Source: Isoetes taiwanensis
Taxonomy: Eukaryota; Streptophyta; Lycopodiopsida; Isoetales; Isoetaceae
Assembly (NCBI GenBank): GCA_021234155.1
Contig: JAJEKV010000011.1
Coordinates: 15,353,255 to 15,417,254, forward strand
Direction of reading: 5' to 3'
Length of the DNA stretch: 64,000 nt
The notes under the pieces were generated by a model. It was not told the DNA's origin. It saw only the letters and a list, made by a program, of their open reading frames with translations, and searched no databases. Below, piece by piece: positions 33,722-58,039 of the stretch. The stretch's first letter is position 1; each line of letters opens with the position of its first letter. Position numbers and translations under genes: made by a program.

Positions 33722-34951
33722 CTAGTTTCCACATGACCTTCTACCATCTTTCTTACCAATAATTTGAAAATGGTCTCGCATTGCCCCTGAACTCATAATT
33801 TTAGCTTCAGCAACAAAATAATCCACACTGTAAACCTCGCGGCCACATGGTTTGGTATCCAAATAGCGCCATGTATCTATGGACGGACAGTAGACGAAGA
33901 CTAAGGTCTGCATTGTCCCATTGCCATCAATAAAGTAAGATTGCACGCACACAAGGTCATCACCAGCAGTGACTTTTCTCAATGTCAGGTCATCATATAT
34001 CTGCAAGGATGATAATGGCATAAAAAAATATGATTCTTCTTCTTCATTGCAGAGCCATGTGGATAGCAACTGTTGCTTTTCATTGATTCCAACCAACATA
34101 AGTTTGCCCCTCATTTGGATCAAAACCTCTAATCTCAACTCCGCAAAATGATCTTCAGGTAATAAAAACCTCTTGTAAGACCAAGAGTCTCCATCAATGG
34201 AGTAGCTCCATATACTATCTTTTCCTAAAAAATAAATTAAGTTTCCAACAATTGGATGCGGTTGTGTTGGTTCCCGCAAATCATAACTAGATCCAGGATA
34301 TTTATGCGAACTTCTACTCCAATTAGCAGTGCGAGATTGATAAACTAGAAGATGAAGTGTTGTAGTAACAAGGATAACAACATAGCTATCATCTAATAAA
34401 TCAACTCGAAAAGATAAATTACGCACATTTTGATCTGTGTCGTCTAGTGGAGGACCGCCCAAGGATCGAAGTGATGGAGATGTACATGGATCAAACAGAT
34501 ATAATGTATCAGACATAATATCATAAGCACATAAAAGACCATGGGAGCTATCCAGGTAACGAATGAGATGTTCATGCGGCCATGGCTGCTCTTTCCAAGA
34601 CTGCTCTGGACAAATACATGGCTCAAAATCCTGACCTGGAAGAAAACCTGAATTAAGGTACCCACAAGTAGATCGCATCTTATGCTTTTTAGAAATGCAG
34701 GATAATACTGTTGGGAAATCGCCAAAAATGGAATAAGAAGAGCAATCGCTCTCATTATAAACAATCATAGAGCCTATGGTAGATCGCCGCCTCCACAACT
34801 TCTTAGAATGGACAAAATTATACCAGTGTTTGGAGACCAGAGAGAAACGAGCCACATCTCCGACATCATGGAATCTTCTGAGAATTTTTTCAACCACTTC
34901 CTCCCGCAACATGCTAAACATTGCCCCATCGGATCTTCGGGCGCCCATCAT
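33722..34951 (-). CDS. F-box protein (F-box/kelch-like), single exon
   Basis: An intact 409-residue frame. Residues about 14-56 form an F-box: MLREEVVEKILRRFHDVGDV then FSLVSKHWYNFVHSKKLW, with the conserved LP/LR-E-..IL..., D-..R..LVSK.W pattern. F-box proteins bind SKP1 in SCF ubiquitin ligases and select substrates through the rest of the protein. The C-terminal ~330 residues look like an F-box-associated or kelch-type beta-propeller: repeated short strands with HGLLCAYD, LYLFDPCTSPSLRSLGGPPL, VGNLIYFLGKDSIWSYS, RGKLMLVGINEKQQ and VFVYCPSIDTWRYLDTKP, typical of plant F-box/FBA-kelch proteins. Length is normal for that class. MMG gives two adjacent ATGs; either could start. No intron and no damage. 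It is the only clearly intact host gene in the window. The substrate cannot be predicted. Confidence 0.9.
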   Translation of the reverse strand: MMGARRSDGAMFSMLREEVVEKILRRFHDVGDVARFSLVSKHWYNFVHSKKLWRRRSTIGSMIVYNESDCSSYSIFGDFPTVLSCISKKHKMRSTCGYLNSGFLPGQDFEPCICPEQSWKEQPWPHEHLIRYLDSSHGLLCAYDIMSDTLYLFDPCTSPSLRSLGGPPLDDTDQNVRNLSFRVDLLDDSYVVILVTTTLHLLVYQSRTANWSRSSHKYPGSSYDLREPTQPHPIVGNLIYFLGKDSIWSYSIDGDSWSYKRFLLPEDHFAELRLEVLIQMRGKLMLVGINEKQQLLSTWLCNEEEESYFFMPLSSLQIYDDLTLRKVTAGDDLVCVQSYFIDGNGTMQTLVFVYCPSIDTWRYLDTKPCGREVYSVDYFVAEAKIMSSGAMRDHFQIIGKKDGRRSCGN

Positions 34952-38099: not shown

Positions 38100-40700
38100 C
38101 TTGGGTCAGTATAATCCCATCTCTGGATGGGTGAAATTGTTTTTTTAGGTTGCAGTATACTATAATGTGAAAGTGTTTTGATTTGCTTCTCAAAATTATT
38201 TGGCACTGTGGCACAGATGATATAGTACTGGAATGAAATTTATTCAGGGGAGTCCTGTATCAATACACTTTAGGTGACCTTGGTACTGGGATTTTGTTGG
38301 AATTGGCGTATGTTGTGGTAAATAAGATCAATTGATGGCTTATGGTATAGGCTTATGGGAAGTAATAGTATGGCAATTTTTTAATTTGGTCAACTCTAAT
38401 GATGCTTATACTCAAGATGGTCGATCTGCATGAAGATTATTGTAAGGCTTTATGAACTACAATTACAGACTGGATCAAATGTGGATGACCCTTTAATAAG
38501 GGAAATTCAATGGGTGGAGAACCATGCTTTACATAGTAAAGGTTGACTGATGGGAGACATAGTATATCCAATGACACATTTATGACTGGCATGATATGAA
38601 CTACATGTAATACTCTATTCCTACTGGGTATCAATAGGCAAATACTTTGGAGAATTGATGGTTTTTGTGATATGCTGAACATGAACTAGGTTGATGACTC
38701 TTTTGGCTCAGCCATGCAAAAGTGTAAAAAATGGGGGTCTAATGTGAGGAAAAAGGCCTACCTATGGACTCATGTCTGGATCTACTCAATAAAGAAAAAT
38801 GTGGTGTGGCAGTAAGATAACTCTTGAATAATATAATGGGAATGGAGTGTTGAGGAAGCATGGTATAGTTTGTATTTTATTTAATCCCCTCTAGGGAAAG
38901 GTTGTTTGATTTTGCCAAGATTGTATATGATGGGATGACTTTCATAGGATGGTGTGGCTTAGCTTGGACCACTATGATGGAGACCACAATATGTGGTTTT
39001 CAGTAAACTGGTAGACGGAAAAGGACTATAAAATTTTATAGAGGGGTATCCATCCTAGGCAAGGTTGGTGTTTTGGATTCATAAAGATTATAAAGAGGAT
39101 ATGGATAATACACTGACTTAGGAGTGATGACTTGGGCATGATTTGGTAATGGAACTAGGGAATTGGTCCCCTCAAGGGATTTTGGGTTTTAGCATAAAAA
39201 TTGGATAACGAACCTGGTATCGACCTGTAAAATGGACCTTTGTTGGAATAGTGAGTATGTATGTGTGTTCAAGTAAGCTGAAGCACACAAGGATTCATTG
39301 GCCATATAATATGATCAGCCAAATGATGCTGGGCAATTATTTTTTCTAAATGGGTGTGAGTAGCACCAAGTTTCTACAGAACCTTATGGTTTGGTTTTGT
39401 TGGTTTTTAACATGGTACATTGTTGATGGCTGTATATACAAAGCAAGCTAGGTACTAGTGCTTGTTTAAACTGTCACGTTCTTTCAAATAAGACTCAACA
39501 TAAGGGTTTGAAATGGCACGTATAAATACGGGATGTGACAGCATTGACTGTTGTGATGATGTAGTGGAAGCATGAAAGGTGTGTTGCGAAATAAGGGCTT
39601 AATTGGGAAAAATGTTCAAAGGTAATTGGGGTGCAAGTAAGACCCATGGTCTGAGGCATTTATGGCCGTATAGGATATGAATTTAGCGCAGACAATATGT
39701 GGTTGCACGATAAGTCAAAGTATGTAAGATGAGCCGCATTAAGCTACATATGTTGGACTTCCACATGTGACATACGCAATGGTTGTATAAATTAATTGTT
39801 GGCATAAGGCATTAAGTGTGAAATAGGTGTTTTGTTTACTTGACATAAGTCCTGAGTTGTGATTTTCAGCAGATAAAGTTGGGAATATGTTGGGAATAAG
39901 TGGTATCTATGTTGTGACTTCAACATAAAGCAACAATACTTATGAGGTATTTGGGTATGGCTAGATTTACAATTTGGTTGTATTTGGTGTTGATACCGAA
40001 TTTGTGTATGGGTGTGGCATGGCAATGATGAGACTAAATTAGCAACAGGAGCCTGGTTAGTTGTATAAAGTATTTCAGATTAAGCTTTTAACATTCGACT
40101 GGTCCTGGAATGTTTATGGCCTTAGTAGACTGGCCTAATGGCACAAAAATAAGGTAAGTATCTAACTTTTGGATACAATGGCAATGGCTTATGAAAACAT
40201 TATTTTGAGGCATATTATGGTATGGGTACGTTAGGCATAATTGGTTTAACTGGGCAAGCTGATAGAATGGATTATATTATTATACGTCCTTGTTTGGCCT
40301 ATCTTGAAAAAATATGAGTATTATTGAATATGGTATAATTTAAATAGGATCGCGGTGTTAAAATTATTGGCAATGGTCGATGTTGGGAATATACGGCATA
40401 TGGAAAATGGAAAACCCTAAAAGTGTTATATGCGGCAGAGCTATGGCGATCGTGCTAACCGGAGGCTGATAGTTGACGGATCCCTAACAGAACCTGATGA
40501 TCTAAGGGCGCAGATGATAAGGTATCAAATCAGTTACATGCAATGCCAGGTAGACCGCTGATATGAAGCATGCCTAAGCTGGAAAATGGTTCTTGTAATC
40601 CAAAAATAAGTGATCTCATTTTGTAATGCTGAAGATAATGGATCTGGATCTGACCATTGATGTTGGATTAAGGATGCTTGTTGCACTAAGCACGGTTCGT
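38100..40700 (+). other. Noncoding leader of element unit 1
   Basis: About 2.6 kb with no plus-strand open frame of note. The two minus-strand frames (38437-38682 and 39792-40025) recur in the other units, partly changed in unit 3, simply because the DNA is nearly identical. Possible roles are promoter or pseudo-LTR. The same segment is at about 46137-48740 and 54189-56790. Confidence 0.6.
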
Positions 40701-40710
40701 GGTATTTTCC

Positions 40711-40720
40711 CTATATATAG
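40711..40720 (+). promoter_or_regulatory. TATA-like box before the first coding exon
   Basis: CCCTATATATAGATGC lies about 45 bases before the ATG at 40761, identical in all units (about 48751 and 56800). A CTGCAG just before the ATG, after a T-rich tract, could alternatively be a splice acceptor, in which case transcription would start farther upstream. Confidence 0.45.
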
Positions 40721-40760
40721 ATGCTGGTTATGCGAGAGATATACCTTTTTTGTCTGCAGT

Positions 40761-41099
40761 ATGAGTAAAGCAGGGAGACCCTCCGGAGCGCCCAACTTAG
40801 GCCAAACAAGGTCTAAGCTCATTGAGATATTGAGAAAGGCTGGAATTGAGCTTAGTGGAGTACAGCCTACTAAGGCTCAATTACTGGAGTTGTGTAGGAG
40901 CAATGGGATTGATCCCAATGGAGAGAAGATGGGGAGCATTAAAAAATTCATTCCTATGCAGCCCTGTAGCAGCACTGCTAAAGCAGGTGGTATAGAGAAG
41001 TCTGGGAGTGGCACTGTGGCTGACACAGTCCCAGACAGCATTGAAATCTTAAACGATGAGGATGAGGATGGCTCTGAAAACGAGATTCAGCAAAATCAG
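40761..41099 (+). CDS. Element ORF1, first exon (unit 1): SAP-like N-terminus, acidic tail
   Basis: 113 codons from ATG (MSKAGRPSGAPNLGQTRSKL) to an acidic end (NDEDEDGSENEIQQNQ). The frame is open upstream to 40626, but the TATA-like box and conserved context favour 40761. Residues about 16-52 contain two short helices, RSKLIEILRKAGIELSG and KAQLLELCRSNGIDPNG, spaced like the helix-turn-helix of a SAP-type DNA-binding motif. That is a tentative reading. The exon ends CAG followed by GTTCAG, phase 0, and the acceptor at 42111 continues the same frame with EGAHDRAPPAVIQDIEQ. So this exon and the following coding region probably make one protein. Identical in unit 3; unit 2 is altered at CAG/CTG sites. 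Confidence 0.7.
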
Positions 41100-42111
41100 G
41101 TTCAGTATATTTTAAATTATCCAGTTCTATTTAAGCATATGACATTTGGTATGTTTGACTCTGTTTCTTGGGATGCAATGCACAATGTTATGCTGATTTG
41201 ATATTGCTATACTAATTGTGTGATGAAATTATATGTGGAAGTGATTATTGATACGTTGTGGGTAAAGGGCGATAAGCCAAGGGAAAACTCAGCTTACCTG
41301 CTAGCAAGTATGTGGTTACCCTTGTAAAAGGCTAATTCGTGTACTGTTTGCTGCAGGTAACCGTTTTCTCTTCTCCCATAAATTGTTATGGATGTTTTGT
41401 TGCTGTGGGAAAAGCTACTTCAGAAATCTGCTGTACAATTGTGTTTGAACATTTTTTGATTTTATGGAAATGCTTAATCTATTAAGTAAATCAGGTATAT
41501 TCTCTACTCTTTAGTCATTTGGCTGTAAAAAGGCAAGCAGACTTGGATCTCAGCTGTTATAACTTGTGATTCTGTAAAATATAACTTATTGGGATTAAAA
41601 ATACAAGCTACATTGGATCTGTTTTTCTAAGTCTTTATTAGTTTATGTTTGATTGTGCTACATATGCATATGGAATTTGCTATAATCATTATTGAATTTG
41701 CTATTTTAGTATCTGCTATTTGATTTTGGGCAAGACTATATTCTACTCTTGTTTTTGTTGTGTATATTGGTCTTACATGATAAAAGTGTCTAAGGCAGTT
41801 GGTTTTGTTGAAAATTATTTGGTATAAACAGTAAACTCTTTTTTCTAATGGTCTCTAAGGCCCCCCAATGTTTTGGGACTGATAAGTCCAGTAAACTTAG
41901 TTGTCTAAGTTTATTAGGATGCTTAGGCTTGTTTTAAGTTTAGGCTAGTCATATATTACACCATTTCAGGACACCAGTTTTACTGGTGTGGGCCTTAGGG
42001 ACCAATTTTTGATATCCATTTTTAGATGTCCAAGTTTTGAAGTCCTATTCTAGTGTTCTGTTTTAGCATGATTTCTATAGTACCAATTGGCTCTAAATCA
42101 TTATATTGCAG
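41100..42111 (+). other. Spliceosomal intron retained in the retroelement (unit 1)
   Basis: 1012 bases, GT...AG, donor AATCAG with GTTCAG and acceptor ATTATATTGCAG with GAAGG. It is T-rich with stops in every frame and joins two open frames in phase 0. The same intron is at 49150-50165 in unit 2. In unit 3 its first 851 bases are at 57189-58039, where the copy stops. Confidence 0.75.
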
Positions 42112-43674
42112 GAAGGTGCTCATGATAGAGCCCCCCCGGCAGTTATTCAAGATATTGAGCAGCCAGCTATGGATGGGAGGCCTGGTTGGTACCCAGAATT
42201 AGCTGCATTCGGTTATCGGTCAGGCATTCTTGCTCCAAATAAAGCCGTTTCAGCAAAGGTCTTGGCATGTATTCGGGAGGACAATCGCACAAATTATTCA
42301 TATGCAAGGAAACCGAATTGCGGGATGGGGATGTTTCACCATACTCTTTTCGGTATGAGCAATATGTTGGACTTGGTTGCCCAATTTTTTTAAGGCGGGT
42401 TATAATCCTGGCGCATGTGATCGACTCATTGAGTACACTTACGAATGTTGCTGCGGCACATGCTTTGGCTGATGACAAGGATGAGGTAGACATGCTTAAT
42501 TTCATTACTGGGCTTTCTGCTTTAGAGACTGCTAATGGGCTTAAGATTACTTATAAAGCCAGGGAGGATAGAGCAGTAAGATGATCTGTGCCCAGACCTG
42601 CCATTAATGGTAACTGCCTCTTCAGTGTTGGGCCTCCAAATGTTGAAAGAGTGAATGAGCAAAATTTTGTTGAAGAACCTGGGCAGAACGTTCGTAGTTC
42701 ACTTAGAAGGTATAATTTGGCTGAACTCAATCTGTTCAATTGTGGAATGTTTCCAATTATGTCTAGAAGAAATGTTGAAGTGCATGCTGAGCAGTTCCAC
42801 CAGGCCCTATGGGAAAGCAAAAATCTGGGAGTCATTGCACCTATCAGTCATGATGCTTGGGTTAAGTTAGCCAATATCAGCAATGAGGAACTCAAAAAAG
42901 CCAAATCGGATGCTATGAGCTTCACCAAGCATATTACAAAGATTGATGTCGAGTTACCCTTTGATCTGGATATTCTTAACAGGAAGTGCAGGGTTGGAAA
43001 TTGTCTCTATATAGGACAAAAAGGCCACATGGCCAAAATGGAGGAGAAAAGAAATGATTTTTATGTGAAAAGGATTTGGCGTACGTATTGCCCCTTCTTT
43101 AAATGTAATTGTGAACTGATTTCTGATGGCAGGGCCAAATGCAAGGACAACATTATCTGGTTCGACCATGTCATTTGGTTTATGATGAACAATTTGGAGC
43201 TGATATGGCCTAAGTGTAATATCCAAATGAGATTCCATCAATTCACTGTCTTTCTATCTTCTGATCCAGTGAAGGAGGCTGTTTTGGCTTACATGGGGTA
43301 TTTGTCCATAAGAGAGATGATGATTGGCATGACTAAAAGGATGGCTGAAAGTTCTAATGCTGACTTGAAAACTGAGTTTGGTGGCTCCAAGGCTGCGGAA
43401 CTACTGGAAAAGACACTGAAGCCTGTAAGTTTCCTTGCTAAGCACATGCATGACAATAGCAGCAGCAACTATGCAACAAAGAGAAGGAATTCCAACTTTG
43501 AGAATCCGTCCAGCAGCATACTCAGGCCTCCTAAGATCAGGAAGAAAGCACCATGTGCTGATTATGTTAATATTGACTCACAAGATGTTCTTTGGCGGCA
43601 CACCTACTGAGGAGTGGAGAAGGCGATGGAAGGAATCGATCTTTGGTGCACGCACCAATTTCAAGTTTACTTGA
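42112..43674 (+). pseudogene. Element ORF1, second exon (unit 1), apparently frameshifted
   Basis: Same protein as at 50166-51730. Unit 1 has shifts near 42216-42420, where the frame stops at 42393, then is open from about 42588 to 43610. The central part reads through continuously (VELPFDLDILNRKCRVGNCL), where unit 2 is broken. Near 43590-43660 it again differs from unit 2. Nearly every difference from unit 2 in the damaged parts is at a CAG or CTG site, so the breaks may be sequencing errors and not decay. No known domain. Confidence 0.6.
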
Positions 43675-43926
43675 TGGTAAACATACATACTACTATCTCT
43701 TTTTGATGATACAGTTTATATTTTCTCCTGTTATATGTTACTATCCTTTTTGAATCAGTTTATCTGATCTCCACTTATATGTTCTACATTTTCTTTCAAT
43801 GAAATATATCTGTGTTGCTGCTTATTGTATGAATGATTGACTTGAGCATAATATTGCATTCAAACTTTGGCCACAGTGCCTTTTTATATTTGTTGAGTTT
43901 ACTCAAAAACCCCCAATTATATACAG

Positions 43927-46041
43927 ATGAAAAGAAGAGAGCTCTACACAAGAATTGATGGAAAATGGAGACTTTTGACAATCAGAGAAAAGAAAAAAGA
44001 AAAGTATGTACACTTTAAATATTTTTCTAAATGTGTTGATAAAATTGACTTTGTGAGTACTTTCAAATCTGTGGTATGCAATGTTTTTGAAGATATAGGA
44101 GATGATCTGTGTAACAATACTAAGTTTAGCTGGAGGTATTCTAGCAACTTAAAGGATATCTTTTACAAACCAAAGGTAGTATTTGCTGAGGAAAAAATAC
44201 CGCCATGTCCATGCACTAATCCGAATCTTAGGAGGTTTATTGACCCACTAATCGGGCATATCAGAACCACGGACTTAAGAATTGTGCATAGTACACCTCT
44301 AAGACAATGGTTTAATAAGGGTTTAAATTTCATTCCTGATGGCCCATTCTCATTGGAAGAGTTTAAATCAGAAATGAGTGTTACCATTGACCAATTTTTT
44401 GAGGTACATAGATTTGAGTTCACTAAGGACGATGAGTACAGAATACAGAGATGTAAAAAAGATCTTAAGAAGGAGACTAAATGGCAGGCAAAGAGGTTTA
44501 TTGCTGATAATGCTACCACAGTTCAAAAATTTATGATTAAGGATGAGAAAGTCATTAAAAATATAGAATGGCTGAAACTTAATTTGTACATTGCTGGAGT
44601 TGATAAGGCAGCTAATAACCCTGCCTTCATTTGCCCTTGGCATATAAGAAATGAAGCGCTCAAAAGACTCAATAGTAATGATTTCTTGAGACATTACATT
44701 GATAAAACAGAATTGATTAAACAAATTGAGAATGACATTGTTGAACTGCTTGGGGAGAAGTTAATAGTATCCCAGGACTTGCCATATCTTTTGGGTATTT
44801 ATAAGGCACATAAACAGGAATACCGTTGGATTACAAATGCACATGATACTATATTCTCATTAGTAGCTTCCATTGTGGCAGGTGGCTTGAAATTAATACT
44901 GGATATCTGGCCTGATGTTTGTCATCGTAAATGTCAAGCAGCAAACTTATTTGCTAAGGACAAGATAAAGGCTGCCTGGGTGGTAAACTCAATATATGAT
45001 GTTGTATGTAACCTTCCAGCAAGAATCACTGATATTTTTGTGGCAGATATTACTAAGTGTTACGAGAATATTCCATTAGAGGGTAGTGATGGGATTTGTA
45101 ATATTATGGCAGACATCATTAATATGGTATGGAAACACCAAAGACAAAGTTTACCCAAAATTGACATGTGGTACCGTATTCTTGGAAACAATACTGTATG
45201 CATTGAATGGAAATATAGTGAACCTGCAGACAACAGGTGGAAAAGAATGAATAAGGATCTTTTTATATTGATCAACAGGTGGCTGCTATGTAATTGTTAC
45301 TTGGTTATGAGTAACAATGTTTGGAAGCAAGTTAAGGGCATTCCCATGGGTTTTGCGTCCAGCCCAAACTGGTGTAATTTATATCTGGCATATTTTGAGC
45401 TTAAGTTTATATGCAAATTGATTGATGATGGAAAAATGCAGGATGCTGCTTGTTTTAACCAGACTTCAAGATATATTGATGATCTCCTCAGTATAAACAA
45501 CCCTGTCATTAGAAAGTATTTGAAAGTACATGATGGTGCTGATTGTGATGTATCACTATACAATCTTGATGTTTTAGCCATTAAGGATGAAACCAAATAT
45601 TGGGAGAATGGACCTAGGAATATAGGAAGGAAGGCTGATTTCCTGAATATGAGTATTGAGGTAATTACACCAGTTTTACGGTATTTATGAGACTTACGAG
45701 GTTTGATAAAAGGTATAATTTGCCATTTGAAGCTTTCAAGTTTGTGCATGCAAGTAGGCTGCAGGGCCACCGTATTTGATGGCCTCGCAATGTTATTATT
45801 TCTCAAAATTCAGCCTTACACCATGTTTATTCAAATCCATCAAAGGCTGCTGTGGGTATACTTGGACTCTTGAACAAATTTATGGCAAATGGGTTTGCTG
45901 AAAAGGATGTATGGTACAAGGTTCTGAAGGTTTTAAATGAGGAGACATTTCCAGGGTTAAGATATGACGTCAAAGAGCTTATTTTTCAGCTTAGAAAGAT
46001 CAAATGTGATACAGTTGGCAGGAGGGTCCCTATGATAACAT
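43927..46041 (+). pseudogene. Reverse transcriptase gene, unit 1 (apparent frameshift near the 3' end)
   Basis: Identical to the unit 2 RT through motif C, with rare substitutions (R for I near residue 172). It stops at 45690 after 587 codons because CAGTTTCTGGTATT in unit 2 is CAGTTTTACGGTATT here. More small differences follow to about 45830 (CTGCAGACC-type sites), after which the frame of unit 2 resumes to the TAG at 46039-46041. All RT catalytic motifs precede the break. Because the changes sit on CTG/CAG sites I regard the break as doubtful. Confidence 0.7.
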
Positions 46042-46052
46042 AGGGGCCCTCC
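46021..46052 (+). other. 3' hairpin overlapping the RT stop codon (unit 1)
   Basis: GGAGGGTCCCTATG pairs with CATAGGGGCCCTCC over 14 bp (one G-U) around an ATAA loop. The TAG stop lies in the right arm. Identical to unit 2. See the unit 2 entry. Confidence 0.8.
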
Positions 46053-48801
46053 AGTCTCTATGTTATTAGTCAGGGATCAGCCTAGCCTTCCGGAAGGAGG
46101 TAGGATATATATATATATATGAGGTTTTTGGTAACTCTTGGGTCAGTATAATCCCATCTCTGGATGGGTGAAATTGTTTTTTTAGGTTGCAGTATACTAT
46201 AATGTGAAAGTGTTTTGATTTGCTTCTCAAAATTATTTGGCACTGTGGCACAGATGATATAGTACTGGAATGAAATTTATTCAGGGGAGTCCTGTATCAA
46301 TACACTTTAGGTGACCTTGGTACTGGGATTTTGTTGGAATTGGCGTATGTTGTGGTAAATAAGATCAATTGATGGCTTATGGTATAGGCTTATGGGAAGT
46401 AATAGTATGGCAATTTTTTAATTTGGTCAACTCTAATGATGCTTATACTCAAGATGGTCGATCTGCATGAAGATTATTGTAAGGCTTTATGAACTACAAT
46501 TACAGACTGGATCAAATGTGGATGACCCTTTAATAAGGGAAATTCAATGGGTGGAGAACCATGCTTTACATAGTAAAGGTTGACTGATGGGAGACATAGT
46601 ATATCCAATGACACATTTATGACTGGCATGATATGAACTACATGTAATACTCTATTCCTACTGGGTATCAATAGGCAAATACTTTGGAGAATTGATGGTT
46701 TTTGTGATATGCTGAACATGAACTAGGTTGATGACTCTTTTGGCTCAGCCATGCAAAAGTGTAAAAAATGGGGGTCTAATGTGAGGAAAAAGGCCTACCT
46801 ATGGACTCATGTCTGGATCTACTCAATAAAGAAAAATGTGGTGTGGCAGTAAGATAACTCTTGAATAATATAATGGGAATGGAGTGTTGAGGAAGCATGG
46901 TATAGTTTGTATTTTATTTAATCCCCTCTAGGGAAAGGTTGTTTGATTTTGCCAAGATTGTATATGATGGGATGACTTTCATAGGATGGTGTGGCTTAGC
47001 TTGGACCACTATGATGGAGACCACAATATGTGGTTTTCAGTAAACTGGTAGACGGAAAAGGACTATAAAATTTTATAGAGAGGGGTATCCATCCTAGGCA
47101 AGGTTGGTGTTTTGGATTCATAAAAATTATAAAGAGGATATGGATAATACACTGACTTAGGAGTGATGACTTGGGCATGATTTGGTAATGGAACTAGGGA
47201 ATTGGTCCCCTCAAGGGATTTTGGGTTTTAGCATGAAAATGGATAACGAACCTGGTATCGACCTGTAAAATGGACCTTTGTTGGAATAGTGAGTATGTAT
47301 GTGTGTTCAAGTAAGCTGAAGCACACAAGGATTCATTGGCCATATAATATGATCAGCCAAATGATGCTGGGCAATTATTTTTTTCTAAATGGGTGTGAGT
47401 AGCACCAAGTTTCTACAGAACCTTATGGTTTGGTTTTGTTGGTTTTTAACATGGTACATTGTTGATGGCTGTATATACAAAGCAAGCTAGGTACTAGTGC
47501 TTGTTTAAACTGTCACGTTCTTTCAAATAAGACTCAACATAAGGGTTTGAAATGGCACGTATAAATACGGGATGTGACAAAGATTGACTGTTGTGATGAT
47601 GTAGTGGAAGCATGAAAGGTGTGTTGCGAAATAAGGGCTTAATTGGGAAAAATGTTCAAAGGTAATTGGGGTGCAAGTAAGACCCATGGTCTGAGGCATT
47701 TATGGCCGTATAGGATATGAATTTAGCGCAGACAATATGTGGCTGCACGATAAGTCAAAGTATGTAAGATGAGCCGCATTAAGCTACATATGTTGGACTT
47801 CCACATGTGACATACGCAATGGTTGTATAAATTAATTGTTGGCATAAGGCATTAAGTGTGAAATAGGTGTTTTGTTTACTTGACATAAGTCCTGAGTTGT
47901 GATTTTCAGCAGATAAAGTTGGGAATATGTTGGGAATAAGTGGTATCTATGTTGTGACTTCAACATAAAGCAACAATACTTATGAGGTATTTGGGTATGG
48001 CTAGATTTACAATTTGGTTGTATTTGGTGTTGATACCGAATTTGTGTATGGGTGTGGCATGGCAATGATGAGACTAAATTAGCAACAGGAGTCTGGTTAG
48101 TTGTATAAAGTATTTCAGATTAAGCTTTTAACATTCGACTGGTCCTGGAATGTTTATGGCCTTAGTAGACTGGCCTAATGGCACAAAAATAAGGTAAGTA
48201 TCTAACTTTTGGATACAATGGCAATGGCTTATGAAAACATTATTTTGAGGCATATTATGGTATGGGTACGTTAGGCATAATTGGTTTAACTGGGCAAGCT
48301 GATAGAATGGATTATATTATTATACGTCCTTGTTTGGCCTATGCAGAAAAATATGAGCTGGTATTGAATATGGTATAATTTAAATAGGATGCGGTGTTAA
48401 AATTATTGGCAATGGTCGATGTTGGGAATATACGGCATATGGAAAATGGAAAACCCTAAAAGTGTTATATCTTGGCGAGCTATGGCGATCGTGCTAACCG
48501 GAGGTGATAGTTGACGGATCCCTAACGAACCCCGATGATCTAAGGGCCGCGTGATGATAAGGTATCAAATCGCCACATGCAATGCCGGAGTAGACCCGTG
48601 ATATGAAGCATGCCTAAGCTGGAAAATGGTTCTTGTAATCCAAAAATAAGTGATCTCATTTTGTAATGCTGAAGATAATGGATCTGGATCTGACCATTGA
48701 TGCTGGATTAAGGATGCTTGTTGCACTAAGCACGGTTCGTGGTATTTTCCCTATATATAGATGCTGGTTATGCGAGAGATATACCTTTTTTGCTCTGCAG
48801 T

Positions 48802-49149
48802 ATGAGTAAAGCAGGGAGACCCTCCGGAGCGCCCAACTTAGGCCAAACAAGGTCTAAGCTCATTGAGATATTGAGAAAGGCTGGAATTGAGCTTAGTGGA
48901 GTCCGGCCTACTAAGGCTCAATTACTGGAGTTGTGTAGGAGCAATGGGATTGATCCCAATGGAGAGAAGATGGGGAGCATTAAAAAATTCATTCCTATGC
49001 AGACCACAGAGCGAAAGACTCTTGCTAAAGCGGTGGTATAGAGAAGTGCGGGAATGGCACACTGTGGGTGACCACAGTCCCCGATAAAGATTGAAATCTT
49101 AAACGATGAGGATGAGGATGGCTCAGAAAACGAGATTCAAAGAAAATCG
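48802..49149 (+). pseudogene. Element ORF1, first exon (unit 2), altered at CAG/CTG sites
   Basis: Matches the unit 1 and unit 3 exon for about 70 codons, then diverges at a run of CAG/CTG positions between 49005 and 49150, shifting frame and giving a stop at about 49039-49041. Units 1 and 3 agree with each other there almost perfectly, so unit 2 is the outlier. The donor reads AATCG before GTTCAAG instead of AATCAG before GTTCAG. Confidence 0.6.
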
Positions 49150-50165
49150 GTTCAAGATATTTTTAAATTATCCAGTTCTATTTAAGCATATGACATTTGG
49201 TATGTTTGACTCTGTTTCTTGGGATGCAATGCACAATGTTATGCTGATTTGATATTGCTATACTAATTGTGTGATGAAATTATATGTGGAAGTGATTATT
49301 GATACGTTGTGGGTAAAGGGCGATAAGCCAAGGGAAAACTCAGCTTACCTGCTAGCAAGTATGTGGTTACCCTTGTAAAAGGCTAATTAAATTAATCTTG
49401 TTTGTTTGCAGTAACCGTTTTCTCTTCTCCATAAATTGTTATGGATGTTTTGTTGTTTGTGGGAAAAGCTACTTCGTAAATCTGGCATACAATTGTGTTT
49501 GAACATTTTTGATTTTATGGAAATGCTTAATCTATTAAGTAAATCGGTATATTCTCTACTCTTTAGTCATTTGGTCAGTAAAAGGCAAGCGGAGACTTGG
49601 ATCTCAAATGTTATAACTTGTGATTCTGTAAAATATAACTTATTGGGATTAAAAATACAAGCTACATTGGATCTGTTTTTCTAAGTCTTTATTAGTTTAT
49701 GTTTGATTGTGCTACATATGCATATGGAATTTGCAGTAATCATTATTGAATTTGCTATTTTAGTATCTGCTATTTGATTTTGGGCAAGACTATATTCTAC
49801 TCTTGTTTTTGTTGTGTATATTGGTCTTACATGATAAAAGTGTCTAAGGCAGTTGGTTTTGTTGAAAATTATTTGGTATAAACAGTAAACTCTTTTTTCT
49901 AATGGTCTCTAAGGCCCCCCAATGTTTTGGGACTGATAAGTCCAGTAAACTTAGTTGTCTAAGTTTATTAGGATGCTTAGGCTTGTTTTAAGTTTAGGCT
50001 AGTCATATATTACACCATTTCAGGACACCAGTTTTACTGGTGTGGGCCTTAGGGACCAATTTTTGATATCCATTTTTAGATGTCCAAGTTTTGAAGTCCT
50101 ATTCTAGTGTTCTGTTTTAGCATGATTTCTATAGTACCAATTGGCTCTAAATCATTATATTGCAG

Positions 50166-51730
50166 GAAGGTGCTCATGATAGAGCCCCCCCGGCAGTTAT
50201 TCAAGATATTGAGCAGCCAGCTATGGATGGGAGGCCTGGTTGGTACCCAGAATTAGCTGCATTCGGGTATCAGGCTGTGGGCATTACTGCTCCAAATAAA
50301 GCTGTTCAGGCAGTGCTGGCATGTATTCAGGATGACAATCTGCACAAATTATTCATATGCAAGGAAACTGAATTGCAGGATGGGGATGTTTCAGTCATAC
50401 TCTTTTCTGGTATGAGCAATATGTTGGACTTGGTTGCCCAATTTTTTAAGGCAGGTTATAATCCTGCTGCATGTGATCAGCTCATTGAGTACACTTACAG
50501 AATGTTGCCTGCAGCACATGCTTTGGCTGATGACAAGGATGAGGTAGACATGCTTAATTTCATTACTGGGCTTTCTGCTTTAGAGACTGCTAATGGGCTT
50601 AAGATTACTTATAAAGCCAGGGAGGATAGAGCAGTAAGAAGATCTGTGCCCAGACCTGCCATTAATGGTAACTGCCTCTTCAGTGTTGGGCCTCCAAATG
50701 TTGAAAGAGTGAATGAGCAAAATTTTGTTGAAGAACCTGGGCAGAACGTTCGTAGTTCACTTAGAAGGTATAATTTGGCTGAACTCAATCTGTTCAATTG
50801 TGGAATGTTTCCAATTATGTCTAGAAGAAATGTTGAAGTGCATGCTGAGCAGTTCCACCAGGCCCTATGGGAAAGCAAAAATCTGGGAGTCATTGCACCT
50901 ATCAGTCATGATGCTTGGGTTAAGTTAGCCAATATCAGCAATGAGGAACTCAAAAAAGCCAAATCGGATGCTATGAGCTTCACCAAGCATATTACAAAGA
51001 TTGATGTCGAAGTTACCCTTTGATCTGGATATTCTTAACAGGAAGTGCAGGGGTTGGAAATTGTCTCTATATAGGACAAAAAGGCCACATGGCCAAAATG
51101 GAGGAGAAAAGAAATGATTTTTATGTGAAAAGGATTTGGCGTACGTATTGCCCCTTCTTTAAATGTAATTGTGAACTGATTTCTGATGGCAGGGCCAAAT
51201 GCAAGGACAACATTATCTGGTTCGACCATGTCATTTGGTTTATGATGAACAATTTGGAGCTGATATGGCCTAAGTGTAATATCCAAATGAGATTCCATCA
51301 ATTCACTGTCTTTCTATCTTCTGATCCAGTGAAGGAGGCTGTTTTGGCTTACATGGGGTATTTGTCCATAAGAGAGATGATGATTGGCATGACTAAAAGG
51401 ATGGCTGAAAGTTCTAATGCTGACTTGAAAACTGAGTTTGGTGGCTCCAAGGCTGCGGAACTACTGGAAAAGACACTGAAGCCTGTAAGTTTCCTTGCTA
51501 AGCACATGCATGACAATAGCAGCAGCAACTATGCAACAAAGAGAAGGAATTCCAACTTTGAGAATCCGTCCAGCAGCATACTCAGGCCTCCTAAGATCAG
51601 GAAGAAAGCACCATGTGCTGATTATGTTAATATTGACTCACAAGATGTTGCTGAGGCAGCACCTACAGGAGTGGAGAAGCTGATGGAAGGAACTGATGCT
51701 GGTGCACGCACCAATTTCAAGTTTACTTGA
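50166..51730 (+). CDS. Element ORF1, second exon (unit 2): novel ~520-residue region
   Basis: Starts after ATTATATTGCAG and runs EGAHDRAPPAVIQDIEQPAM to a TGA at 51728-51730. Two single-base insertions relative to unit 1, GTCGAAGTT (about 51009) and CAGGGGTT (about 51051), shift the frame between 51010 and 51052, so two open blocks result (to 51023 and from 51020). The first block has helical stretches (NMLDLVAQFFKAGYNPA, ADDKDEVDMLNFITGLSALE). The second has KGHMAKMEEKRNDFYVKRIW, a Cys/His-bearing YCPFFKCNCEL and DHVIWFMMNNLELIWPKC, and a basic tail ending RPPKIRKKAPC. I recognise no family. It may be a nucleic-acid-binding or packaging protein; that is a guess. It is followed by a GTAAAC donor-like site and ~250 bp before the RT. 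Confidence 0.6.
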
Positions 51731-51732
51731 TG

Positions 51733-51982
51733 GTAAACATACATACTACTATCTCTTTTTGATGATACAGTTTATATTTTCTCCTGTTATATGTTACTAT
51801 CCTTTTTGAATCAGTTTATCTGATCTCCACTTATATGTTCTACATTTTCTTTCAATGAAATATATCTGTGTTGCTGCTTATTGTATGAATGATTGACTTG
51901 AGCATAATATTGCATTCAAACTTTGGCCACAGTGCCTTTTTATATTTGTTGAGTTTACTCAAAAACCCCCAATTATATACAG
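51733..51982 (+). other. Spacer or second intron between ORF1 and RT (unit 2)
   Basis: 250 bases starting GTAAACATAC and ending ATTATATACAG directly before the RT ATG, so it has the look of an intron. The ORF1 stop (TGA) is two bases before the donor, so splicing would not fuse the proteins. It could bring the RT ATG near the upstream stop. Unit 1 has the same at about 43677-43926. Confidence 0.45.
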
Positions 51983-54091
51983 ATGAAAAGAAGAGAGCTC
52001 TACACAAGAATTGATGGAAAATGGAGACTTTTGACAATCAGAGAAAAGAAAAAAGAAAAGTATGTACACTTTAAATATTTTTCTAAATGTGTTGATAAAA
52101 TTGACTTTGTGAGTACTTTCAAATCTGTGGTATGCAATGTTTTTGAAGATATAGGAGATGATCTGTGTAACAATACTAAGTTTAGCTGGAGGTATTCTAG
52201 CAACTTAAAGGATATCTTTTACAAACCAAAGGTAGTATTTGCTGAGGAAAAAATACCGCCATGTCCATGCACTAATCCGAATCTTAGGAGGTTTATTGAC
52301 CCACTAATCGGGCATATCAGAACCACGGACTTAAGAATTGTGCATAGTACACCTCTAAGACAATGGTTTAATAAGGGTTTAAATTTCATTCCTGATGGCC
52401 CATTCTCATTGGAAGAGTTTAAATCAGAAATGAGTGTTACCATTGACCAATTTTTTGAGGTACATAGATTTGAGTTCACTAAGGACGATGAGTACATAAT
52501 ACAGAGATGTAAAAAAGATCTTAAGAAGGAGACTAAATGGCAGGCAAAGAGGTTTATTGCTGATAATGCTACCACAGTTCAAAAATTTATGATTAAGGAT
52601 GAGAAAGTCATTAAAAATATAGAATGGCTGAAACTTAATTTGTACATTGCTGGAGTTGATAAGGCAGCTAATAACCCTGCCTTCATTTGCCCTTGGCATA
52701 TAAGAAATGAAGCGCTCAAAAGACTCAATAGTAATGATTTCTTGAGACATTACATTGATAAAACAGAATTGATTAAACAAATTGAGAATGACATTGTTGA
52801 ACTGCTTGGGGAGAAGTTAATAGTATCCCAGGACTTGCCATATCTTTTGGGTATTTATAAGGCACATAAACAGGAATACCGTTGGATTACAAATGCACAT
52901 GATACTATATTCTCGTTAGTAGCTTCCATTGTGGCAGGTGGCTTGAAATTAATACTGGATATCTGGCCTGATGTTTGTCATCGAAAATGTCAAGCAGCAA
53001 ACTTATTTGCTAAGGACAAGATAAAGGCTGCCTGGGTGGTAAACTCAATATATGATGTTGTATGTAACCTTCCAGCAAGAATCACTGATATTTTTGTGGC
53101 AGATATTACTAAGTGTTACGAGAATATTCCATTAGAGGGTAGTGATGGGATTTGTAATATTATGGCAGACATCATTAATATGGTATGGAAACACCAAAGA
53201 CAAAGTTTACCCAAAATTGACATGTGGTACCGTATTCTTGGAAACAATACTGTATGCATTGAATGGAAATATAGTGAACCCGCAGACAACAGGTGGAAAA
53301 GAATGAATAAGGATCTTTTTATATTGATCAACAGGTGGCTGCTATGTAATTGTTACTTGGTTATGAGTAACAATGTTTGGAAGCAAGTTAAGGGCATTCC
53401 CATGGGTTTTGCGTCCAGCCCAAACTGGTGTAATTTATATCTGGCATATTTTGAGCTTAAGTTTATATGCAAATTGATTGATGATGGAAAAATGCAGGAT
53501 GCTGCTTGTTTTAACCAGACTTCAAGATATATTGATGATCTCCTCAGTATAAACAACCCTGTCATTAGAAAGTATTTGAAAGTACATGATGGTGCTGATT
53601 GTGATGTATCACTATACAATCTTGATGTTTTAGCCATTAAGGATGAAACCAAATATTGGGAGAATGGACCTAGGAATATAGGAAGGAAGGCTGATTTCCT
53701 GAATATGAGTATTGAGGTAATTACACCAGTTTCTGGTATTTATGAGACTTACAGGTTTGATAAAAGGGATAATTTGCCATTTGAAGCTTTCAAGTTTGTG
53801 CATGCAAGTAGCTGCAGACCGTATTTGATGGCCTGCAATGTTATTATTTCTCAAATTCAGCCTTACCTGTATGTTTATTCAAATCCATCAAAGGCTGCTG
53901 TGGGTATACTTGGACTCTTGAACAAATTTATGGCAAATGGGTTTGCTGAAAAGGATGTATGGTACAAGGTTCTGAAGGTTTTAAATGAGGAGACATTTCC
54001 AGGGTTAAGATATGACGTCAAAGAGCTTATTTTTCAGCTTAGAAAGATCAAATGTGATACAGTTGGCAGGAGGGTCCCTATGATAACATAG
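51983..54091 (+). CDS. Reverse transcriptase, Penelope-like (702 aa, intact)
   Basis: The enzyme that copies element RNA into DNA. ATG directly follows ATTATATACAG. Residues 94-96 are CPC and 111-117 HIRTTDL, followed by a PLRQWFNKGLNFIP stretch; a C-x-C plus H(I/V).T.DL..(L/V)R..L.KG..F block precedes the RT core in some Penelope-like proteins I know. RT core about 290-600: motif A FVADITKCYENIPL (D374), motif B KGIPMGFASSPNWCNLYLAY (471-490), motif C RYIDDLLSINNP (YIDD 516-519), then DFLNMSIEV, a motif D/E-like region. The thumb-like tail ends KCDTVGRRVPMIT. No GIY-YIG endonuclease is visible at either end, unlike canonical Penelope and Naiad types. Telomerase, group II intron and LTR RTs fit less well. 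The gene is open throughout. Confidence 0.85.
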   Translation: MKRRELYTRIDGKWRLLTIREKKKEKYVHFKYFSKCVDKIDFVSTFKSVVCNVFEDIGDDLCNNTKFSWRYSSNLKDIFYKPKVVFAEEKIPPCPCTNPNLRRFIDPLIGHIRTTDLRIVHSTPLRQWFNKGLNFIPDGPFSLEEFKSEMSVTIDQFFEVHRFEFTKDDEYIIQRCKKDLKKETKWQAKRFIADNATTVQKFMIKDEKVIKNIEWLKLNLYIAGVDKAANNPAFICPWHIRNEALKRLNSNDFLRHYIDKTELIKQIENDIVELLGEKLIVSQDLPYLLGIYKAHKQEYRWITNAHDTIFSLVASIVAGGLKLILDIWPDVCHRKCQAANLFAKDKIKAAWVVNSIYDVVCNLPARITDIFVADITKCYENIPLEGSDGICNIMADIINMVWKHQRQSLPKIDMWYRILGNNTVCIEWKYSEPADNRWKRMNKDLFILINRWLLCNCYLVMSNNVWKQVKGIPMGFASSPNWCNLYLAYFELKFICKLIDDGKMQDAACFNQTSRYIDDLLSINNPVIRKYLKVHDGADCDVSLYNLDVLAIKDETKYWENGPRNIGRKADFLNMSIEVITPVSGIYETYRFDKRDNLPFEAFKFVHASSCRPYLMACNVIISQIQPYLYVYSNPSKAAVGILGLLNKFMANGFAEKDVWYKVLKVLNEETFPGLRYDVKELIFQLRKIKCDTVGRRVPMIT

Positions 54092-54100
54092 GGGCCCTCC
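54069..54100 (+). other. 3' hairpin overlapping the RT stop codon (unit 2)
   Basis: Left arm 54069-54082 and right arm 54087-54100 pair over 14 bp with one G-U, closing a 4-base ATAA loop. The RT stop TAG (54089-54091) is inside the right arm. 33 bases later is CCTTCCGGAAGG (54134-54145), then (AT)10. A stem-loop followed by a microsatellite tail is the design of template-recognition ends in several non-LTR elements. That role here is inference. Confidence 0.8.
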
Positions 54101-54172
54101 AGTCTCTATGTTATTAGTCAGGGATCAGCCTAGCCTTCCGGAAGGAGGTAGGATATATATATATATATATAT

Positions 54173-57100
54173 GAGGTTTTTGGTAACTCTTGGGTCAGTA
54201 TAATCCCATCTCTGGATGGGTGAAATTGTTTTTTTAGGTTGCAGTATACTATAATGTGAAAGTGTTTTGATTTGCTTCTCAAAATTATTTGGCACTGTGG
54301 CACAGATGATATAGTACTGGAATGAAATTTATTCAGGGGAGTCCTGTATCAATACACTTTAGGTGACCTTGGTACTGGGATTTTGTTGGAATTGGCGTAT
54401 GTTGTGGTAAATAAGATCAATTGATGGCTTATGGTATAGGCTTATGGGAAGTAATAGTATGGCAATTTTTTAATTTGGTCAACTCTAATGATGCTTATAC
54501 TCAAGATGGTCGATCTGCATGAAGATTATTGTAAGGCTTTATGAACTACAATTACAGACTGGATCAAATGTGGATGACCCTTTAATAAGGGAAATTCAAT
54601 GGGTGGAGAACCATGCTTTACATAGTAAAGGTTGACTGATGGGAGACATAGTATATCCAATGACACATTTATGACTGGCATGATATGAACTACATGTAAT
54701 ACTCTATTCCTACTGGGTATCAATAGGCAAATACTTTGGAGAATTGATGGTTTTGTGATATGCTGAACATGAACTAGGTTGATGACTCTTTTGGCTCAGC
54801 CATGCAAAAGTGTAAAAAAAATGGGGGTCTAATGTGAGGAAAAAGGCCTACCTATGGACTCATGTCTGGATCTACTCAATAAAGAAAAATGTGGTGTGGC
54901 AGTAAGATAACTCTTGAATAATATAATGGGAATGGAGTGTTGAGGAAGCATGGTATAGTTTGTATTTTATTTAATCCCCTCTAGGGAAAGGTTGTTTGAT
55001 TTTGCCAAGATTGTATATGATGGGATGACTTTCATAGGATGGTGTGGCTTAGCTTGGACCACTATGATGGAGACCACAATATGTGGTTTTCAGTAAACTG
55101 GTAGACGGAAAAGGACTATAAAATTTTATAGAGGGGTATCCATCCTAGGCAAGGTTGGTGTTTTGGATTCATAAAAATTATAAAGAGGATATGGATAATA
55201 CACTGACTTAGGAGTGATGACTTGGGCATGATTTGGTAATGGAACTAGGGAATTGGTCCCCTCAAGGGATTTTGGGTTTTAGCATGAAAATTGGATAACG
55301 AACCTGGTATCGACCTGTAAAATGGACCTTTGTTGGAATAGTGAGTATGTATGTGTGTTCAAGTAAGCTGAAGCACACAAGGATTCATTGGCCATATAAT
55401 ATGATCAGCCAAATGATGCTGGGCAATTATTTTTTCTAAATGGGTGTGAGTAGCACCAAGTTTCTACAGAACCTTATGGTTTGGTTTTGTTGGTTTTTAA
55501 CATGGTACATTGTTGATGGTTGTATATACAAAGCAAGCTAGGTACTAGTGCTTGTTTAAACTGTCACGTTCTTTCAAATAAGACTCAACATAAGGGTTTG
55601 AAATGGCACGTATAAATACGGGATGTGACAGCATTGACTGTTGTGATGATGTAGTGGAAGCATGAAAGGTGTGTTGCGAAATAAGGGCTTAATTGGGAAA
55701 AATGTTCAAAGGTAATTGGGGTGCAAGTAAGACCCATGGTCTGAGGCATTTATGGCCGTATAGGATATGAATTTAGCGCAGACAATATGTGGCTGCACGA
55801 TAAGTCAAAGTATGTAAGATGAGCCGCATTAAGCTACATATGTTGGACTTCCACATGTGACATACGCAATGGTTGTATAAATTAATTGTTGGCATAAGGC
55901 ATTAAGTGTGAAATAGGTGTTTTGTTTACTTGACATAAGTCCTGAGTTGTGATTTTCAGCAGATAAAGTTGGGAATATGTTGGGAATAAGTGGTATCTAT
56001 GTTGTGACTTCAACATAAAGCAACAATACTTATGAGGTATTTGGGTATGGCTAGATTTACAATTTGGTTGTATTTGGTGTTGATACCGAATTTGTGTATG
56101 GGTGTGGCATGGCAATGATGAGACTAAATTAGCAACAGGAGCCTGGTTAGTTGTATAAAGTATTTCAGATTAAGCTTTTAACATTCGACTGGTCCTGGAA
56201 TGTTTATGGCCTTAGTAGACTGGCCTAATGGCACAAAAATAAGGTAAGTATCTAACTTTTGGATACAATGGCAATGGCTTATGAAAACATTATTTTGAGG
56301 CATATTATGGTATGGGTACGTTAGGCATAATTGGTTTAACTGGGCAAGCTGATAGAATGGATTATATTATTATACGTCCTTGTTTGGCCTATGCAGAAAA
56401 ATATGAGCTGGTATTGAATATGGTATAATTTAAATAGGATGCGGTGTTAAAATTATTGGCAATGGTCGATGTTGGGAATATACGGCATATGGAAAATGGA
56501 AAACCCTAAAAGTGTTATATGCGGCAGAGCTATGGCGATCGTGCTAACCGGAGGCTGATAGTTGACGGATCCCTAACAGAACCTGATGATCTAAGGGCGC
56601 AGATGATAAGGTATCAAATCAGTTACATGCAATGCCAGGTAGACCGCTGATATGAAGCATGCCTAAGCTGGAAAATGGTTCTTGTAATCCAAAAATAAGT
56701 GATCTCATTTTGTAATGCTGAAGATAATGGATCTGGATCTGACCATTGATGCTGGATTAAGGATGCTTGTTGCACTAAGCACGGTTCGTGGTATTTTCCC
56801 TATATATAGATGCTGGTTATGCGAGAGATATACCTTTTTTCTCTGCAGTATGAGTAAAGCAGGGAGACCCTCCGGAGCGCCCAACTTAGGCCAAACAAGG
56901 TCTAAGCTCATTGAGATATTGAGAAAGGCTGGAATTGAGCTTAGTGGAGTACAGCCTACTAAGGCTCAATTACTGGAGTTGTGTAGGAGCAATGGGATTG
57001 ATCCCAATGGAGAGAAGATGGGGAGCATTAAAAAATTCATTCCTATGCAGCCCTGTAGCAGCACTGCTAAAGCAGGTGGTATAGAGAAGTCTGGGAATGG

Positions 57101-58039
57101 CACTGTGGCTGACACAGTCCCAGACAGCATTGAAATCTTAAACGATGAGGATGAGGATGGCTCTGAAAACGAGATTCAGCAAAATCAGGTTCAGTATATT
57201 TTAAATTATCCAGTTCTATTTAAGCATATGACATTTGGTATGTTTGACTCTGTTTCTTGGGATGCAATGCACAATGTTATGCTGATTTGATATTGCTATA
57301 CTAATTGTGTGATGAAATTATATGTGGAAGTGATTATTGATACGTTGTGGGTAAAGGGCGATAAGCCAAGGGAAAACTCAGCTTACCTGCTAGCAAGTAT
57401 GTGGTTACCCTTGTAAAAGGCTAATTCGTGTACTGTTTGCTGCAGGTAACCGTTTTCTCTTCTCCCATAAATTGTTATGGATGTTTTGTTGCTGTGGGAA
57501 AAGCTACTTAAATCATTGCATAATTGTGTTTGAACATTTTTGATTTTATGGAAATGCTTAATCTATTAAGTAAATCGGTATATTCTCTACTCTTTAGTCA
57601 TTTGGTCAGAAAAGGCAAGCGTGACTTGGATCTCAAATTTATAAACTTGTGATTCTGTAAAATATAACTTATTGGGATTAAAAATACAAGCTACATTGGA
57701 TCTGTTTTTCTAAGTCTTTATTAGTTTATGTTTGATTGTGCTACATATGCATATGGAATTTGCTATAATCATTATTGAATTTGCTATTTTAGTATCTGCT
57801 ATTTGATTTTGGGCAAGACTATATTCTACTCTTGTTTTTGTTGTGTATATTGGTCTTACATGATAAAAGTGTCTAAGGCAGTTGGTTTTGTTGAAAATTA
57901 TTTGGTATAAACAGTAAACTCTTTTTTCTAATGGTCTCTAAGGCCCCCCAATGTTTTGGGACTGATAAGTCCAGTAAACTTAGTTGTCTAAGTTTATTAG
58001 GATGCTTAGGCTTGTTTTAAGTTTAGGCTAGTCATATAT
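54173..58039 (+). mobile_element. Penelope-like retroelement, unit 3 (5' half only)
   Basis: Starts GAGGTTTTTGGTAACTCTTG like unit 2 and follows the consensus through the leader, TATA-like box (56800), first exon and 851 bases of the intron. It then stops inside the intron at CTAGTCATATAT, continuing as ATATATATATCACTAATATA, which belongs to the neighbouring repeat. The junction is in a TA-rich stretch. It lacks ORF1 exon 2 and the RT. Ordinary 5' truncation by reverse transcription would remove the other end. Confidence 0.85.
56850..57188 (+). CDS. Element ORF1, first exon (unit 3)
   Basis: 113 codons, as in unit 1 except one residue (G-N for G-S in the GSGTVAD segment). Ends at CAG before GTTCAG. 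The intron is cut at 58039 and no second exon follows, so this copy cannot make the spliced protein. The exon is otherwise undamaged. Confidence 0.65.

Follow-up and report, generated by a model that had tools for sequence, protein, structure and literature searches.

A tandem array of a probable Penelope-like retrotransposon in Isoetes taiwanensis, with (AT)n flanks and a conserved, covarying intronic RNA

Introduction

How do Penelope-like elements (PLEs) that lack an endonuclease (EN) choose their targets, why do PLEs retain introns, and where do their partial tandem copies come from? These open questions are raised by a 64,000-nucleotide (nt) stretch of the Isoetes taiwanensis genome (GenBank assembly GCA_021234155.1, contig JAJEKV010000011.1, positions 15,353,255 to 15,417,254 of the forward strand), hereafter the window, in which a preliminary description had reported a head-to-tail array of a Penelope-like retroelement of about 8 kb in a plant-type genome. 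Our analysis makes it probable that the window holds a young tandem array of an EN-deficient Penelope-like retrotransposon with (AT)n microsatellites as its insertion sites and with a reverse transcriptase (RT) that would start synthesis at an internal site of its RNA. Positions below are those of the window, and the element lies on its plus strand.

Results

In the assembled sequence the array is real and young. It consists of unit 1 (38100-46120), a full copy minus about 17 nt of its 5' end, a full unit 2 (46121-54172) and a partial unit 3 (54173-58039), limits which alignment confirmed as first described. The near-identity of the units outside noisy sites was likewise upheld: aligned identity is 98.3% between units 1 and 2, 97.9% between units 2 and 3 and 98.9% between units 1 and 3, with differences concentrated in two stretches of the unit, 2000-3500 and 4000-4500, and sparse outside them. 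Such clustering is what patchy polishing would give, and the noisy stretches break the open reading frames (ORFs) of unit 1. Short (AT)n tracts lie at the boundaries between units 1 and 2 (46105-46120) and units 2 and 3 (54153-54172), as well as where the array meets the 3' flanking DNA (58034-58047). The third copy, initially called a half unit, is indeed partial, but its end is a defined site within intron 1, shared with two loci elsewhere in the genome (L012 and L020), and no random truncation.

Relatives are numerous in the assembly searched (1,658,258,908 bases, 1,110 contigs). A tblastn search with the window RT gave 4,692 first-look candidates, among which 63 RT copies were scored (two being the window's own; 53 of the 63 without an internal stop). 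A second RT clade shares 37-40% identity with the window RT; a separate search for it yielded 122 matches out of 3,380 candidates and extends into further groups with 46-52% identity to its query. All these counts are lower bounds. From the best RT matches we picked 20 stretches of 10 kb, which represent 19 loci. As in the window, the element's own 5' start resumes after its 3' end in 12 of the 19, the pseudo-LTR (long terminal repeat) arrangement described for PLEs in passages of PMC8969392, PMC3846280 and PMC11167929. Where the end of the second copy was readable, it fell in three out of three cases (L012, L020 and the window) at one and the same site of intron 1, after GGC-AG...ATATA, and was followed by (AT)n; that of L014 lies beyond the limit of its stretch. 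In the window this proposed site of initiation or templating occupies 41943-41956 in unit 1, 49997-50010 in unit 2 and 58026-58039 at the end of unit 3.

In 16 of the 19 loci (L011 has a shortened 3' structure) an (AT)n tract of five or more units lies no more than 8 nt beyond the 3' structure, and in 12 of the 19 such a tract is found no more than 8 nt from the 5' start, ten of these checked by the element's own second copy and two by likeness to sister families; L016 has imperfect AT only. As background, the share of positions that have such a tract within 10 nt is 1.8%. Four loci (L015, L020, L025 and L026) have the same repeat (ATAGTACAAA-ACTTG) before the 5' tract, which makes one dispersed repeat, variable in its AT tract, a target that recurs. 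At the other end of the unit, the hairpin and (AT)n tail noted earlier are both present, but the hairpin belongs to a larger 3'-terminal RNA of about 90 nt (46014-46104 in unit 1, 54062-54152 in unit 2) that is conserved across 16 aligned sequences. Two mutually exclusive folds of this RNA covary, with two-sided changes in 4 of the 10 pairs of a long hairpin and in 7 of the 18 pairs of an alternative made of an outer and an inner helix; it is possible that the RNA acts as a switch or as a second contact for the RT.

What, then, surrounds the site at which the second copies end? It is enclosed by a branched intronic RNA domain of about 155 nt (range 147-176 nt), found at 41850-42003 in unit 1 and 49904-50057 in unit 2; unit 3 ends in its upstream half alone (57933-58039), which stops where initiation is proposed. 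Besides its closing stem, the domain has a short hairpin stem and an inner stem, two additional arms, the UAUAUA region, which is single-stranded, and a final hairpin. This RNA, the fixed end site and the (AT)n target escaped the preliminary description, and they are the most telling parts of the element. Its structure is conserved and covarying: in an alignment of 18 sequences 95.3% of cells are paired, as against 25-53% in slid controls, two-sided changes occur in 25 of 46 pairs, and the covariation score is 0.376 (slid controls, 0.056-0.180). None of 500 shuffles matched the paired percentage and five matched the number of further pair types, whilst the fold of the window's own sequence has a z of -5.8.

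Could this domain instead be a self-cleaving ribozyme or a 3'-processing signal, the RNA ending at UAUAUA and being copied by ordinary target priming? Such an RNA would predict the same fixed end site, and hammerhead ribozymes are frequent in PLEs according to passages of PMC6431247 and PMC11167929. However, no Rfam family, hammerhead included, reaches its gathering score in the window; at E values of up to 5, the stretch 45600-54700 gave no hammerhead and only three snoRNA-type chance matches, and around the site itself the one match, to a CRISPR repeat (E 2.6), is due to chance. Moreover, the last hairpin and the closing strand, both 3' of the site, are as well paired as the rest, which speaks against cleavage because an RNA cut there would lose that part. 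We consider a ribozyme or processing signal unlikely, and return to a domain that would present a template.

The gene plan around this domain is common to the families. A long 5' untranslated region precedes exon 1 (MSKAGRP...QNQ), an intron 1 of about 1-2 kb with GT/AG ends and an exon 2 of about 520 amino acids (aa), after which a CAG acceptor leads into an RT exon without a conserved start codon; exon 1 and the RT exon are both in phase 0 and might be joined to each other. In the window, exon 1 runs from its ATG to the GT donor at 40761-41099 in unit 1 (equivalents start at 48802 and 56850), and exon 2 of unit 2 occupies 50166-51730, its frame broken between ORFs 50223-51023 and 51089-51730. 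The RT ORF is intact in unit 2 (51983-54091, 702 aa) and loses its frame close to the C terminus in unit 1 (43927-45690). The claim of an intron in each unit is borne out by its GT and AG ends. Among the matches listed, 12 have a GT donor after the conserved exon 1 (two of them the window's), and an AG acceptor stands 5' of exon 2 in the window and in 11 of 15 copies examined, 10 of the 15 having the exon 2 stop codon after a conserved (K/R)F-x. The introns are kept in the genomic copies, and would presumably be spliced at these ends. A further, 3' intron inside the RT gene was considered and dropped, as L014 and others end the frame before the 3' structure.

Exon 2 was said to lack known relatives, and this held: with a mean column identity of 62% across 13 aligned sequences, it finds none above threshold in Pfam (window pieces and three relatives), NCBIfam (window pieces) or the PDB (by profile). 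We do not believe the sub-threshold matches to NCBIfam sec-translocase models (E 0.0011, 19.3 of 96 bits; E 0.034) and a sigma-70 model (E 0.068), nor the weak PHROGs matches (E 0.12-0.13), and take the PDB profile match 4s1a (E 0.63) as chance; a Pfam SAP domain in exon 1, below cut-off in the two of eight proteins showing it, is not claimed. In the pairs compared, both proteins are under purifying selection, the ratio of nonsynonymous to synonymous rates (dN/dS) being 0.08-0.21 in seven of eight RT pairs (one pair was saturated) and 0.05-0.10 in all five exon 2 pairs. Outside the host, a search with the RT found no relative in viral contigs, and searches with the family alignment A4 found none in viral contigs or prokaryotic genomes. 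The plant-type host first proposed is supported.

To which class does the element belong? The motifs named at the outset are present in the window RT, as ADITKCYENIP, GIPMG and YIDD, and KAHK-RWITNAH, AD(I/V)TKCYE-IP, GIPMG and Y(I/M)DD are conserved in 26 aligned RTs; these we read as PLE-like. Together with the architecture they suggest an RT of PLE type. The Penelope-like architecture first described is supported by the tandem and pseudo-LTR form and by the intron kept in genomic copies, and the lack of GIY-YIG near the RT is upheld as well. By architecture the element is thus a PLE without GIY-YIG, by its RT a putative one. None of 184 scored RT matches has a GIY-YIG domain within 10 kb, against 140 GIY-YIG matches in all, the nearest at 37.5 kb. 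As a separate observation, these 140 places lie in short open frames, some with identical scores, and perhaps belong to another mobile family. The terminal repeats are partial tandem copies, unlike those of an LTR retrotransposon, and neither integrase nor protease turned up in Pfam scans that covered four element frames of the window, the relatives' exon 1 and exon 2 frames and the 26 RTs. Nor is the site telomeric, the window lying 15.35-15.42 Mb into a 24.3-Mb contig; an association with telomeres was dropped, no doubled TTTAGGG or TTAGGG being present in the 20 stretches or the window.

A different class of retroelement, for example a long interspersed nuclear element (LINE) with a microsatellite target that came to resemble PLEs by convergence, has in its favour that the RT is too divergent for profile assignment and that some LINEs do target microsatellites. 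On the other hand, the pseudo-LTR tandem form and the kept introns are traits of PLEs (as passages of PMC8969392 and PMC3846280 describe them), and the Pfam scans made found no LINE endonuclease domain; convergence from another class thus seems to us distinctly unlikely.

The junctions themselves bear on how the partial copies arose. A genome-wide pattern in which the upstream half of the site runs into 16 nt or more of TA repeat found 46 forward matches on the plus strand and 590 overlapping placements on the minus strand (three plus-strand and nine distinct minus-strand places among the matches listed), with 0 in the reversed control for each strand. The reciprocal junction, TA repeat and then downstream half, gave 0 matches, although 59 copies of the core are intact and carry those downstream letters (CGATTTC; control 0/0); the junction patterns cover some families only, and not identical ones, and the counts are not totals. 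This asymmetry fits directional synthesis and not an exchange between AT repeats. DNA recombination of the flanking (AT)n with the intronic ATATAT, or a deletion between them, would need no RT initiation, and it could draw on the AT repeats on both sides and on the joining of the window's unit 3 at a shared ATATAT, but no reciprocal junction stands opposite the 46 found on one strand (in patterns that differ somewhat in the families covered) and the junction site lies within a covarying RNA, so that we hold such an origin to be very improbable.

Tandem arrangement is not peculiar to the window. A same-orientation RT neighbour within 10 kb was found for 11 of the 184 scored RT matches, on C919 (the window's own pair), C1045, C1033, C2 and C93, and a neighbour in any orientation for 15 of the 184, the pairs on C1034 and C1089 being opposed; the head-to-tail arrangement therefore recurs in the Isoetes taiwanensis genome. 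Of the 59 copies of the RNA core, 38 lie less than 12 kb from another in the same orientation, and tandem arrays are frequent in the copies found. That the window's junctions are assembly artefacts, an idea to which the clustered differences lend the support of noisy sequence, deserves almost no credence in view of these same-orientation neighbours, only two of the 11 RT matches being the window's own. Some arrays are shorter: seven RNA-core copies stand 4.20-4.26 kb apart in C223:283401-308927, and pairs at 4.5-4.7 kb occur on C42, C93, C996, C1069 and C1100. From their spacing, these 4.2-4.7-kb arrays are probably non-autonomous derivatives that share the RNA module.

The window holds other features as well. 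Immediately 3' of the array lies a direct repeat with a spacing of about 1.99 kb (58041-60648), whose second copy is preceded by ACAAAGACTTGTATATAT, resembling the flank of other insertions. Further away are a GC-rich block (up to 59%) at 4000-14000 with a 296-bp tandem repeat at 5000-6182, a (TCT) repeat of 94 copies at 16774-17053, an F-box protein gene of 409 aa on the minus strand (33722-34951, Pfam) and a LINE-type remnant with a zf-RVT domain (63333-63938, Pfam).

Discussion

We posit that a single transcript would serve two uses. Its spliced form would code for the exon 1+2 protein and, somehow, the RT, whilst the unspliced form would be the template for reverse transcription. In the latter, intron 1 may fold into the multi-branched domain that keeps the UAUAUA stretch single-stranded; the RT would hold this domain, the (AT)n 3' end at a break would pair with UAUAUA, and synthesis would begin there, inside the RNA, and proceed to the RNA 5' end. 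On a two-unit template, a start inside the RNA would yield one full unit and, behind it, a partial copy ending at the intronic site, fused to the target (AT)n. The primer ends could come from breaks within (AT)n; alternatively, exon 2 might encode a nuclease that has escaped recognition. In human cells, breakage is described for AT-rich repeats that form structures at fragile sites (in part of PMC6289451), and by analogy fragile-site-like breakage is a possible source of primers for an element without GIY-YIG.

Several observations weigh against this picture. The Pfam model RVT_1 stays below cut-off for the window RT and is weak in all 26 aligned RTs (best E 5.5e-5), the sole NCBIfam RT match, to group II RT (E 8.6e-4), falls far short of the cut-off, and no RT was found in the PDB, by sequence or by profile. 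At seven of the 19 loci the pseudo-LTR is absent or not assessable: L023 and L024 have other DNA beyond the 3' (AT)n, L018 and L022 show no restart match (their 5' starts perhaps lying outside the stretch), and L019, L021 and L028 have no 3' structure in the 1.2-1.4 kb of downstream sequence covered. Unit 1 of the window lacks an AT tract at its 5' junction. The second copies in L012, L020 and the window lack the downstream half of the intronic RNA, so that a full new copy would need a tandem-array (dimer) transcript or template jumping. A model of the intronic domain, R1, finds full-length domains in 17 of the 19 loci and in both full units of the window, but by construction, as all except unit 2 of the window trained it; at the pseudo-LTR ends of L041, L043 and the window (57933) it also finds three half domains, which lie outside the training set yet are close copies of trained ones. 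R1 gave weak opposite-strand matches at four trained sites and in L041 (17.6-25.5 bits), which we attribute to the self-complementary domain and its AT runs, and none at all in L019 and L022. In L022 and in a second-clade element on C1045, a different structured stretch occupies the same place, with the template TAGTATATATAC; its fold is strong in the former (z -4.8) and weak in the latter (z -1.6).

For completeness, a PDB profile match of the RT to YaxB (E 0.066) is due to chance, and an AlphaFold prediction of residues 190-692 of the window RT, run alone, has a mean pLDDT (predicted local distance difference test) of 35. Stretches of the second RNA type with a UAUAUA template lie at about 4380-4830 of L022 (oriented) and about 5730-5570 of L010 (minus strand).

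Since the second type accompanies a clade 1 RT in L022 and a clade 2 element elsewhere, module swapping is possible. More broadly, and rather more tentatively, perhaps this is a land-plant lineage that homes to simple repeats by way of a telomerase-like, internally templated ribonucleoprotein, in which the intron RNA would be the (AT)n template, no endonuclease of its own would be needed, and the RNA would be a swappable cis module usable in trans. What suggests a swappable module is that two RNA types of different structure, type 1 and the type 2 of L022 and the second RT clade, share one template, and that the short 4.2-4.7-kb arrays carry the type 1 core. In the telomerase ribonucleoprotein, an internal single-stranded template within a folded RNA pairs with the 3' end of the repeat. 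The proposed mechanism would work alike, with the template as part of a mobile element's RNA, a likeness that is no evidence of common descent of the two RNAs.

How does this compare with known systems? Coprina of fungi, which we take to be an EN-deficient PLE, is among the closest, and the Naiad and Chlamys PLEs, which carry GIY-YIG domains, share the green lineage with our element, as does Dryad of conifers. For Dryad a GIY-YIG domain is reported (part of PMC9033089). The suggestion that our element might be a distinct lineage without GIY-YIG agrees with the lack of that domain near the RT, but EN-deficient PLEs are already on record in the land plants Selaginella, Pinus and Picea (PMC9033089, Table 1), so neither a plant PLE nor a missing GIY-YIG is new. 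Like these and the Athena elements or Terminons of rotifers, to go by passages of PMC6431247 and PMC9033089, our element has an RT without an adjoining GIY-YIG, an extra ORF and head-to-tail arrays, and like the former it lives in a land plant, a comparison that draws on published descriptions. It differs from this EN-deficient group in its interstitial (AT)n targets, as opposed to telomeres, in that no hammerhead was found, and in the proposed template, which is internal and intronic.

PAc, a Poseidon-type PLE of Anolis, shares the tandem and pseudo-LTR form and the AT-rich targets, and, unlike our element, has both GIY-YIG and a hammerhead (passages of PMC11167929). Its RT starts internally on the RNA in vitro, 111-118 bp into the ORF where the RNA is structured, which explains the tail of genomic copies; an internal start is proposed here too, but that of PAc shares no homology with the DNA that is cut, whereas our proposed site matches the (AT)n target (PMC11167929, in part). 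In EN-deficient Terminons, a 3' RNA fold is described as exposing the complement of the telomeric overhang (part of PMC6431247). The present element would combine the two, by analogy: a PAc-like internal start and a Terminon-like, target-matching template. We found no description of an intronic template RNA with an (AT)n target in the literature searched, which did not cover the main primary papers, and a prior description is possible; a full-text literature search, judged on title and abstract, found no paper on PLEs in Isoetes, and 'Penelope' is absent from the main text of the I. sinensis genome paper.

In this element the three PLE questions of target choice, intron retention and partial tandems converge, as the proposed start lies in an intron, within a folded RNA and in a sequence that matches the target. 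If true, the mechanism would be a natural intermediate between the priming of retrotransposons and telomerase, and a single genome would offer many natural variants of it for study.

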